Positions 32,637 to 40,231 of a DNA stretch of 64,000 nt are shown piece by piece. Origin of the DNA: Magnetococcales bacterium. GTDB lineage: Bacteria > Pseudomonadota > Magnetococcia > Magnetococcales > JADFXB01. The notes below the pieces were generated by a model. That model did no database searches. It saw only the letters and a program-made list of their open reading frames with translations, and was not told the DNA's origin. Within the stretch, counting starts at the first letter, position 1. Each line of letters opens with the position of its first letter. The position numbers and the translations under genes are program-made. The stretch lies in the NCBI GenBank assembly GCA_015233935.1, contig JADFXB010000002.1, positions 1 through 64,000 on the forward strand. The letters are read 5' to 3'.

Positions 32637-34181
32637 ATGCAGGGTATACCCCAACCTCTGATTATTTTGGAAATGGCCAACAACCATATGGGGAGCCTGG
32701 ACCACGGTTTGCGTCTGGTGGAAGCCTTCGGCCAGGCCAGTCGACCCTTTCCTTTCCGCTTCGCCTTTAAATTACAATACCGTCACCTGGATACCTTCAT
32801 CCATCCCGATTACCAGGGACGCTCCGACATCAAATATATCAAACGCTTCAGCGAAACCCGCCTGCAACGCAGCGAATTCAAACAATTGGTGGCCAAAATC
32901 AAGGAGCAGGGATTCCTGGCCATCTGCACCCCCTTTGACGAAGCCTCGGTGGACTTTATCGAAGAAGATGGCATCGATGTATTAAAAATTGCCAGTTGCT
33001 CCTTTACCGACTGGCCCCTGTGGGAACGGGTGGTGAAAAGCAATCTGCCCCTGATCGCCTCCACTGCCACCGCCACCGTCAAAGAGATGGACAACGTGGT
33101 CAGTTTTCTCAAACACCGGGATAAATCTTTCGCCCTGCTCCATTGCGTGGCCGAATACCCCACCGAGCAGGACAAAATTCAGCTCAATCAAATCGATTTT
33201 CTGAAAAATCGTTATCCCCAGGTGCCCATTGGCTACTCTACCCACGAATCCCCCTCTTGCAGCCAGTCCATCCCCATGGTCATTGCCAAAGGGGCCACCA
33301 TCATTGAACGTCACGTGGGGCTTCCCACCGATCAATACCCCCTCAACGCCTACTCCGGCAGCCCGGAAGATTTTGTCCAGTGGATGCAGGCCGCAACCAA
33401 CGCCTTTACCCTGTGTGGCGCACCCATCGATACCCGTATCGCCCCCACACCTGGCGAAGTGGCCAGCCTGGCTTCCTTACGACGTGGGGTTTTTGTCAAA
33501 AAAGATATCCCCGCCGGATACCCCCTGGGAGACAAAGACGTCTTCTTTGCCATCCCCTGTCAGGATGGTCAGGTGACCGCCAACGATTGGTCCAAATACA
33601 GCAAATACTCCCCCACCTCACCCCTGAAGGCCGGACAGCCCTTGCTGTTTGCTGAGGTCAACCATGTCAACTCCCGTCAGTTGATCGGCGAGATTGTCCA
33701 GGATGTGAAACAATTGTTGCAAAAAGGGCATGTCATCGTACCTGGGGCCGCCGAGCTGGAAATTTCCCACCACTACGGGCAGGAAAAATTTTATCAATAC
33801 GGGGCCACCATGATCACGGTGATCAACCGGCAATACTGCAAAAAATTGCTTGTCGTGCTTCCCGGCCAACGCCATCCCGAACACTACCACGCCCAGAAAG
33901 ATGAAAGTTTCTACGTCCTGCACGGAACCTTGAACATTGTCCTGGACGGGGTGGCCAAAGTGGTGCGGGCAGGGGAGATCGTCCCCGTGGCCAGTGGTGT
34001 GCGTCACAGCTTCAGCAGCGATACCGGGGTGGTCTTTGAAGAGGTCTCCACCACCCACGTGCCCAACGACTCCTTCTACACCGATCCCACCATCATGGAA
34101 AATCCCCACCGCAAGACTTTTCTGACCCACTGGATGGACAAGCCACGGGTGAGTGCCAATCAATGTGTCGTCCTGGAGTAA
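32637..34181 (+). CDS. NeuB/SpsE-type nonulosonate synthase fused to SAF and cupin domains
   Basis: IILEMANNHMGSLDHGLRLVEAF, DVLKIASCSFTDWPLWERV, GYSTHESPS, ATIIERHVGLPTDQYPLNAYSGSPEDF; C-terminal LPGQRHPEHYHAQKDESFYVLHGTLNIVLDG cupin. ATG preceded by AGGAGG. Confidence 0.9.
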   Translation: MQGIPQPLIILEMANNHMGSLDHGLRLVEAFGQASRPFPFRFAFKLQYRHLDTFIHPDYQGRSDIKYIKRFSETRLQRSEFKQLVAKIKEQGFLAICTPFDEASVDFIEEDGIDVLKIASCSFTDWPLWERVVKSNLPLIASTATATVKEMDNVVSFLKHRDKSFALLHCVAEYPTEQDKIQLNQIDFLKNRYPQVPIGYSTHESPSCSQSIPMVIAKGATIIERHVGLPTDQYPLNAYSGSPEDFVQWMQAATNAFTLCGAPIDTRIAPTPGEVASLASLRRGVFVKKDIPAGYPLGDKDVFFAIPCQDGQVTANDWSKYSKYSPTSPLKAGQPLLFAEVNHVNSRQLIGEIVQDVKQLLQKGHVIVPGAAELEISHHYGQEKFYQYGATMITVINRQYCKKLLVVLPGQRHPEHYHAQKDESFYVLHGTLNIVLDGVAKVVRAGEIVPVASGVRHSFSSDTGVVFEEVSTTHVPNDSFYTDPTIMENPHRKTFLTHWMDKPRVSANQCVVLE

Positions 34182-34188
34182 TGCCCCT

Positions 34189-38521: not shown

Positions 38522-38584
38522 GAAAAAATATAGAATTCAAGGCTGGGATGGCTTGGGTAGAACGAAGAAAAGAGAGGATATTCC

Positions 38585-40231
38585 GTGAAGAAAATCTTGT
38601 TTATAGTTCCACCACACCTTTCTTACGATTACTATGTCAATCCGCCACCCAACGTTACCCAGTTCATGAAAAAGGATGGCAAGACTTATTGCAATCTTTT
38701 TACAGATTTGCCATTGGGTATCCTGTCTATCAGTGCTTATCTAAAGAAATATGCCAGGGAGTCCATTGAGACCCGTTTGTTGAATTATAATATCGATCTG
38801 AACGATCTGGAAGCCTTTCCTTATTCCAACTTTGCTGATTATTTCCGGGATGTTCTTGAGGGGTACCGGGAATTCAAGCCGGATGTGATTGGTCTTTCGG
38901 CATTGTTCACTCCTTCTTATGGCAATATGCTGGAAATTGCAGCTTGTTGTAGGGCAATGTTTCCCCAGGCATTGATCATTGCGGGTGGTAGTGTTCCTTC
39001 GTGCATGTATAAGGAGGTATTTCGGGATAGTACCCATTTTGATGGTCTTTGTTTTGGGGAGGGTGAAAAACCCATGCTGGCATTGATGGATGCGGCGGAT
39101 CCTGTGAGTCATTTGGAGGGAGACCACAGTTGGGTTACCCGGTCCAAGTTGAATTCTAATACGGTTTTCGTGCATAATTTTATCGAAAAACTGGATGAAA
39201 TACCGTTTTATGATTATAAACTATGTGATATCGGAAAGTATGGTCTCAATACGACATATAGTCAGATTGTGACGATTAAAGATAAAATTAGTTGTATTAC
39301 GGTGATGACTTCTCTGGGGTGTCCGTTCAAATGTGCATTTTGTGCATCCCACAAGGTACATGGTCGCAAAATGCGCTTTTATAGTCTTGAAAGACTTGAG
39401 GAAGATTTTACACGTTTGCGGGATGAATATGGTGTGGAAACCGTTGTGGTGATGGATGATCATGTAATGGGGGATCGGGAACGGGCCATTGAAGTGTCCC
39501 GCTTGATTCAGCGATTGGGTATGAAGCCGGTATTTCAGGGCGGATTGACCCTTTTCTCCCTGGATCGCAAGACACTGATGGCTTTGCGGGAGACAGGAGT
39601 TTATCAGCTCAATCTTTCGGTGGAATCGGGTAGCGATAGGGTGTTGCGGCATATCATGCATAAGCCGTTGAAGTTGAGTATTGTGGAAAAAGTGGTAGCC
39701 AATTGTCGGGATTTGGGCATTTATACTAATGTTAATATTTTGCTAGGCATGCCAGGTGAAACCAAAAGGGATATCCAGGAGGCCAAGGAATATTTGAAGA
39801 CCATTTATGCTAACTGGTTTTCCATTTACAGTGCAACGCCCCTTGTTGGCAGTGAAATGTATGATAAGTGTGTGGAAAATAATTATCTGACGGAGGGGCA
39901 TCTGGATAGCGACTATAAAAAGTCGGTGGTTGAGACCGAGGATTTTTCTGCTCAGTATATTCAGGACATGGCGTATATTTATAATCTTGAGTTGAATTTT
40001 CTCTACAACAGCGACTACCGGCTGGGTGATTACAAAACAGCCCTCTTGGGATTAGAAAAAACCATCCGCGCCAAATATGATCATATGTTTGCCCACTACT
40101 ATACCGGCAAGTGTTATGAATTTTTGGGCGCAGGGACCAAGGCGGAGGAGCATCTTCTCCTTGCCAGAAAGATCCATGATGAAAGTCCCTATTGGCAGAG
40201 TTATGCCCAAAAGTTCAATTTCACTTTTTAA
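38585..40231 (+). CDS. B12-binding-domain-type radical SAM protein with C-terminal TPR-like tail
   Basis: MTSLGCPFKCAFCASHKVHG (CxxxCxxC), B12-binding-like N-domain DVIGLSALFTPSYGNMLEIAACCRAMFPQALIIAGGSVPS. Confidence 0.88.
   Translation: MKKILFIVPPHLSYDYYVNPPPNVTQFMKKDGKTYCNLFTDLPLGILSISAYLKKYARESIETRLLNYNIDLNDLEAFPYSNFADYFRDVLEGYREFKPDVIGLSALFTPSYGNMLEIAACCRAMFPQALIIAGGSVPSCMYKEVFRDSTHFDGLCFGEGEKPMLALMDAADPVSHLEGDHSWVTRSKLNSNTVFVHNFIEKLDEIPFYDYKLCDIGKYGLNTTYSQIVTIKDKISCITVMTSLGCPFKCAFCASHKVHGRKMRFYSLERLEEDFTRLRDEYGVETVVVMDDHVMGDRERAIEVSRLIQRLGMKPVFQGGLTLFSLDRKTLMALRETGVYQLNLSVESGSDRVLRHIMHKPLKLSIVEKVVANCRDLGIYTNVNILLGMPGETKRDIQEAKEYLKTIYANWFSIYSATPLVGSEMYDKCVENNYLTEGHLDSDYKKSVVETEDFSAQYIQDMAYIYNLELNFLYNSDYRLGDYKTALLGLEKTIRAKYDHMFAHYYTGKCYEFLGAGTKAEEHLLLARKIHDESPYWQSYAQKFNFTF

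Follow-up and report, generated by a model that had tools for sequence, protein, structure and literature searches.

A run of five plus-strand genes (positions 32637-40231) lies in the first 64 kb (64,000 nucleotides, hereafter the window) of contig C222 (JADFXB010000002.1, 84 kb), part of a 4.54-Mb draft genome of a Magnetococcales bacterium. Herein we propose, with a probability of roughly 0.7, that one half of a route to a C4-branched higher sugar, i.e., making the donor and ligating it, is encoded here, with a fusion protein of the NeuB family supplying a 2-oxoacid to a thiamine diphosphate (ThDP)-dependent carboligase. Judged from its genes, the system is best read as the established YerE-type route to branched sugars in a variant form, with NeuB recruited as donor maker, and its product, on our best reading, would be a neutral C4-branched higher sugar. 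Making the donor for a decarboxylative coupling is, to our knowledge, a role known for no other member of the NeuB family, and a literature search, which left most subscription journals outside its reach, found no link between NeuB or cupin proteins and ThDP-dependent sugar branching.

Re-derivation of the open reading frames (ORFs) returned five genes whose coordinates and spacing fully agree with an earlier prediction made from the sequence alone, hereafter the original prediction: the first three are separated by 7 bp and 11 bp, the third and fourth overlap by 4 bp, and 63 bp lie before the fifth. The first four start with ATG and the fifth (38585) with GTG, and all five gene families named in that prediction were borne out by profile matches:

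32637-34181, plus strand: NeuB-SAF-cupin fusion of 514 amino acids (Pfam NeuB and Cupin_2; AlphaFold2 model with a predicted local distance difference test score, pLDDT, of 91; Foldseek matches 3g8r, NeuB and PseI)
33669-34151, plus strand: cupin domain of the same protein (residues 345-505), a probable sugar ketol-isomerase (Foldseek; profile match to 2y0o)
34189-36024, plus strand: predicted ThDP-dependent carboligase of the YerE/JanthE type (Pfam TPP_enzyme N, M and C; best PDB match JanthE, 8rph)
36036-37490, plus strand: short-chain dehydrogenase/reductase (SDR) fused to a small phosphatase domain of the haloacid dehalogenase (HAD) type (Pfam Epimerase; weak EcbF/BcbF match C-terminally)
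37487-38521, plus strand: zinc-ribbon/Rossmann methyltransferase with a C-terminal Rossmann-like part, putatively an optional decorating enzyme (Pfam Methyltransf_23)
38585-40231, plus strand: B12-binding radical SAM protein, putatively an optional decorating enzyme (Pfam B12-binding and Radical_SAM)

Conservation was assessed in 84 NeuB-cupin loci. Of these, 80 are the best of 256 stretches confirmed when genomes were scanned with a profile of NeuB-cupin, and four come from relatives, a set of 61 genomes (the window's own and 60 others). As controls we used 20 loci from these relatives, some of them shorter, each centred on a NeuB gene of the ordinary kind. By their record titles, the 80 loci from the scan span alpha-, beta- and gammaproteobacteria, Magnetococcales, deltaproteobacterial groups, Chloroflexi, Nitrospirae, Chlorobiaceae and Bacteroidetes, as well as Acidobacteria, Opitutales, Microcystis, Gemmatimonadetes, Elusimicrobia, Planctomycetia, Fibrobacteres and several candidate phyla; no match to NeuB-cupin was found in plasmid records. 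Clustering placed a ThDP homologue in about 77 of the 84 loci, the window included. The two genes are directly adjacent in 48 of the 68 loci scored and close together on one strand in 16 more, several loci having a small HAD-like gene between them. Distances between NeuB proteins follow those between ThDP proteins (r = 0.74, as against a maximum of 0.20 in 2000 permutations), and close homologues of NeuB-cupin (at least 53% identity) and of the ThDP protein (at least 58%) occur in the same 9 of the 61 genomes. The five-gene cluster is not due to chance, and its core recurs across phyla. The homologues are not scattered independently of each other, the NeuB-cupin and ThDP genes being linked in nearly all loci, which favors the single pathway that the original prediction had envisaged. 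Within the operon, NeuB-cupin and the ThDP gene, along with SDR and HAD, form the conserved unit; the genes for the methyltransferase and the radical SAM protein recur but are optional.

The ThDP protein matches JanthE (8rph) over its whole length at 398 bits, compared with 275 bits for the next best PDB chain, whereas acetolactate synthase is its best NCBIfam match but the acetolactate synthase cut-offs were not reached. It carries SDG where most family members have GDG and JanthE has CDG. These matches argue for a YerE-like carboligase, nearer to the YerE-like enzymes than to biosynthetic acetolactate synthases, and carboligation is the predicted reaction. YerE (yersiniose A), ErwE (erwiniose) and JanthE, the nearest solved structure, belong to the same enzyme group as the window protein. 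YerE and ErwE both use CDP-4-keto-3,6-dideoxyglucose (CDP, cytidine diphosphate) as acceptor, the donor being pyruvate for YerE and preferentially 4-hydroxy-2-oxo acids for ErwE (PMC12247030), and the JanthE clade takes pyruvate too in vitro (PMC12247030, PMC12188165); the physiological substrates of JanthE are described as unknown (PMC12188165).

The same acceptor pathway recurs in the NeuB-cupin loci. The most frequent other neighbors of the NeuB-ThDP pair are RfbF (glucose-1-phosphate cytidylyltransferase, 46 of 84 loci), RfbG (CDP-glucose 4,6-dehydratase, 52 of 84) and RfbH (CDP-4-keto-6-deoxyglucose-3-dehydrase, 48 of 84), which together make CDP-4-keto-3,6-dideoxyglucose. None of the three was found in the 20 control loci, and the order RfbF-RfbG-RfbH-NeuB-ThDP on one strand was seen in 29 of the 84. 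Representatives of RfbF and RfbH exceed their NCBIfam cut-offs (RfbH with 726 bits against 423), while RfbG is the best family match of its representative, but under the cut-off. RfbH above cut-off was present in all 15 relatives with the ThDP clade, compared with 7 of 46 without it (Fisher 2.4e-9). RfbH was also found in 10 of 10 named genomes searched whole, including six that have no local RfbF/G/H and carry RfbH elsewhere. The window genome itself has an isolated RfbG-RfbF-RfbH operon on contig C144 with no obvious consumer adjoining; the composition of C144, like that of C222, is typical of the genome. The acceptor pathway, which the original prediction had overlooked, appears from gene content to be RfbF-RfbG-RfbH, in trans in the window genome and near the pair in most relatives. 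This link, together with JanthE as the nearest solved relative, lends support to the earlier suggestion of a branched sugar formed by a YerE-like ThDP enzyme.

The first protein is a clear member of the NeuB family (137.8 bits against a Pfam gathering cut-off of 22.1), and Foldseek searches with its confident AlphaFold2 model returned the NeuB fold, with 3g8r as the top match (52% identity across the NeuB-SAF part) followed by NeuB and PseI. It has in common with the NeuB, PseI and LegI synthases the fold, an SAF-like linker domain and the framework of the phosphoenolpyruvate (PEP)-condensing active site, but differs from them in its extra cupin domain, in an active-site substitution and in the absence of NeuA from its loci. 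Arg314 of meningococcal NeuB positions the N-acetyl group (PMC6795526) and aligns with Ile306 in the window protein, a replacement that argues for a non-acetamido acceptor. Scores fell short of both equivalog cut-offs (NeuB_NnaB, 132 against 400 bits; PseI, 121 against 340 bits), and by similarity to one NeuA probe no NeuA-type CMP-sialate synthetase (CMP, cytidine monophosphate) was found in the 84 loci, compared with 9 of the 20 controls. A standard sialic, pseudaminic or legionaminic acid locus was rejected on the failed cut-offs and the lack of a match to the NeuA probe in the 84 loci, and the original prediction was correct on both counts, the missing NeuA and the non-standard locus.

The cupin domain matches the D-lyxose/D-mannose isomerases in Foldseek (YdaE, 2y0o; Thermofilum 7nzo/p/q; E. 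coli Z5688, 3kmh and 3mpb) and in a profile comparison with 2y0o (E 4e-16), with which its metal-site residues align. The metal-site positions are occupied by H416, H418, E423 and H457, of which the last three are invariant in 51 of 51 members; H416 is His in the window protein but Gln in most relatives, which, together with the fusion to NeuB, sets this cupin apart from those isomerases. By model and alignment, this is a D-lyxose/D-mannose-isomerase-like domain, which the original prediction had not recognized, and ketol-isomerase function is probable.

Further evidence on the role of NeuB came from loci in which it is replaced. Scanning metagenomes with diverged ThDP sequences gave at least 80 loci, whose counts represent a sample. 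Among the 80 loci listed, the donor-type enzyme is NeuB in 31, an HpcH/HpaI aldolase in 21, an HMGL-like aldolase in 8 and a KDPG/KHG aldolase in 1, such that exactly one is present in 61 loci and two together in none. Examples of the replacements are:

L128:1784-2566, L179:3739-5346 and L192:2388-3041: aldolases replacing NeuB, from three Pfam families (HpcH_HpaI, HMGL-like and KDPG Aldolase)

HpcH/HpaI, HMGL-like and KDPG aldolases were absent from the 84 NeuB-cupin loci and from the 20 controls, and in two relatives with a diverged ThDP protein (41-42% identity) an HpcH/HpaI aldolase gene stands in the place of NeuB. Since related loci are not independent, we set aside a hypergeometric value for the mutual exclusion of NeuB and HpaI (4e-6) and instead counted switches between NeuB and aldolases on the ThDP tree (FastTree), finding 12 on the full tree and at least 8 after branches below 95 support were collapsed. 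RfbF/H are found with all three of the NeuB, HpaI and HMGL-like types. NeuB and the three aldolase families all form 2-oxoacids, typically 4-hydroxy-2-oxo acids, by making a carbon-carbon bond. The replacement of NeuB by aldolases whose products are 2-oxoacids of the same type makes it most likely that NeuB supplies the donor for the ThDP enzyme instead of a final acidic sugar; donor making is also the simplest role common to the four enzymes. A NeuB product used as ThDP donor would probably lose its carboxylate as CO2, hence the acidic end product suggested by the original prediction is not favored.

From the gene content, linkage, co-occurrence, displacement pattern and fold described above, we infer the following route. 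The cupin domain would interconvert a ketose and an aldose, and NeuB, by the chemistry of its family, would condense PEP with the aldose, phosphorylated or not, to give a 2-oxo-3-deoxy-4-hydroxy acid of probably C8-C9, from which the HAD phosphatase may take off the phosphate. By analogy to YerE, ErwE and JanthE, the ThDP enzyme would decarboxylate this acid and add the acyl anion to C4 of CDP-4-keto-3,6-dideoxy-D-glucose, an acceptor that RfbF/RfbG/RfbH encoded on C144 would supply, as the genomic partnership indicates. The ketone left in the branch would then be reduced by the SDR. Decoration would fall to the methyltransferase and the radical SAM protein, and a glycosyltransferase would move the CDP-linked sugar onto a surface glycan. 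With a hexose as NeuB acceptor, the product would have 14 carbons (9 - 1 + 6). Aurantose is a branched tetradecose and matches this count (C9 - CO2 + C6), which is a lead only and not a test. Aurantose (Spirochaeta aurantia) and ropiose (Rhodopseudomonas palustris) are C-branched sugars ascribed to the YerE-like ThDP enzymes SpirE and RhopE, as the proposed product would be to its own; the text consulted describes neither their donor-making enzymes nor a NeuB-type donor maker for YerE, ErwE or JanthE (PMC12247030). On a broader scale, we lean somewhat towards a modular scheme, widespread in many phyla, that pairs a ThDP carboligase with a 2-oxoacid maker, either NeuB-cupin or any of three unrelated aldolases. 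Two sugars would be welded through a carbon-carbon bond into neutral branched surface sugars of C13-C14, NeuB being the donor maker for the decarboxylative coupling.

Several points weigh against the donor-making role as we propose it. The reactions, the identity of the aldose, the removal of phosphate, the order in which the SDR, the methyltransferase and the radical SAM protein act, and the nature of the glycan are all deduced from homology and gene context. NeuB-cupin and ThDP lie on separate contigs in three Magnetococcales genomes, the window genome's own RfbG-F-H operon is unlinked to the five genes, and this draft has an estimated contamination of 7%. No donor enzyme was found in 19 of the 80 metagenome loci listed, mostly short contigs but including a few long ones (L138, L188, L209 and L210). 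A search for the neighborhood of JanthE, where a donor enzyme might lie, found no close orthologue among 250 genomes of one family.

These points leave room for other readings, the strongest of which we nevertheless consider improbable: the ThDP enzyme would take pyruvate, as YerE does with the same CDP-keto-sugar (PMC12247030) and the JanthE clade can in vitro, and give the CDP-sugar a two-carbon branch of the yersiniose type, the NeuB product being an ulosonic acid that enters the same glycan as a residue of its own. NeuB normally does make the final sugar acid, but with CMP-sialate synthetase missing from all 84 loci the usual means of activating that acid would be lacking, and an independent NeuB should neither track the ThDP gene so tightly nor exclude three other 2-oxoacid-forming enzymes in the metagenome loci listed. 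Less probable again is the picture of the original prediction, i.e., an acetohydroxyacid synthase-like transfer of a two-carbon unit from pyruvate onto the 2-keto group of the NeuB product to give a branched acidic sugar. This fits the NeuB-ThDP linkage and the sub-threshold NCBIfam match to acetolactate synthase, but leaves the link to RfbF/G/H unexplained, conflicts with a nearest solved relative that is YerE-like (398 against 275 bits) and calls for an activating enzyme for the acidic sugar that the NeuA probe did not find in the 84 loci. That the genes are a loose set of glycan genes co-travelling on mobile sugar islands and do not make up one pathway is very unlikely, since the patchy distribution over many phyla, the varying methyltransferase and radical SAM genes and the pair split in three genomes are outweighed by the 48 adjacent and 16 close pairs in 68 loci, the co-occurrence in the same 9 of 61 genomes, the presence of RfbH elsewhere whenever it is missing locally (6 of 6) and the mutual exclusion of donor enzymes in the metagenome loci listed.

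Within the proposed donor-and-ligation pathway, the SDR, the methyltransferase and the radical SAM protein would act after the coupling. The SDR protein shows the motifs SSGAVYG and YxxxK, and its fusion to HAD is retained in relatives. We rejected a 4,6-dehydratase of the RfbG/RmlB type, as this family has SSGxxYG where RfbG has [ST][ST]DK.Y and lacks Asp-Glu/Asp-Lys after the catalytic Ser/Thr; the lack of these acid/base residues would fit an epimerase or reductase. In the biosynthesis of paulomycin, an aldo-keto reductase is established as reducing the branch ketone once the branch has been added (PMC4753412). In three metagenome proteins of ~740 amino acids (P0120, P0124 and P0125), an SDR homologue is fused to a C-methyltransferase with PF08421/PF08484, linking the SDR and methyltransferase steps. 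The window methyltransferase has an N-terminal CxxC...CxxC ribbon ahead of Methyltransf_23; a second copy at a contig edge (C329:5-631) is 54% identical across its C-terminal half. Methyltransferase homologues occur in 10 of the 84 loci and radical SAM homologues (at least 40% identity) in 15, with none of either in the 20 controls, a distribution that points to recurrent but optional decorators. The suggestion in the original prediction that the branched sugar may also be C-methylated is retained.

Upstream of the operon, a near-identical stem-loop with a T-run (GGGGAGAATCCCGGTTCT...CCCC) occurs twice, ~390 bp apart, at 32088-32113 and 32478-32499. The first is listed as:

32088-32113, plus strand: terminator-like stem-loop upstream of the operon (consensus match only)

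As a consensus match, it is consistent with a transcript that starts downstream. Further upstream are a TPR and glycosyltransferase family 41 (OGT/SPINDLY-like) protein (25496-27661, minus strand), a DUF5672 protein (29182-30486, plus strand) and a GT4 glycosyltransferase (30483-31595, plus strand), all three possible users of the sugar. The same region encodes an RTX metalloprotease of the serralysin-like type (27720-29144, plus strand), which has calcium-binding repeats and scores under the curated cut-off of the serralysin model. A convergent minus-strand pair follows 5 bp past the operon, comprising a MiaB/RimO-like radical SAM protein under all curated cut-offs (40237-41472) and a 570-amino-acid protein without a Pfam match (41476-43188). 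We rejected the pair (40237-43188) as part of the system, as neither the 84 NeuB-cupin loci nor the 80 metagenome loci listed contain anything corresponding to it; the 570-amino-acid protein has counterparts in two control loci. An FGE-sulfatase domain fused to a protein kinase domain is encoded at 48106-50055 (plus strand).

If the proposed route is correct, a large group of YerE-like ThDP enzymes that lack a known native substrate, possibly including JanthE, would gain a physiological donor that can be predicted from a neighboring gene. The route would also represent a second use of the NeuB family, as maker of an intermediate and not of an end product, and annotations as "sialic acid synthase" in such loci would probably be wrong. 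Large branched surface sugars would then be predicted in many phyla, including in Pseudomonas taeanensis MS-3, Pseudomonas capeferrum WCS358, Polynucleobacter kasalickyi and Holophaga foetida.

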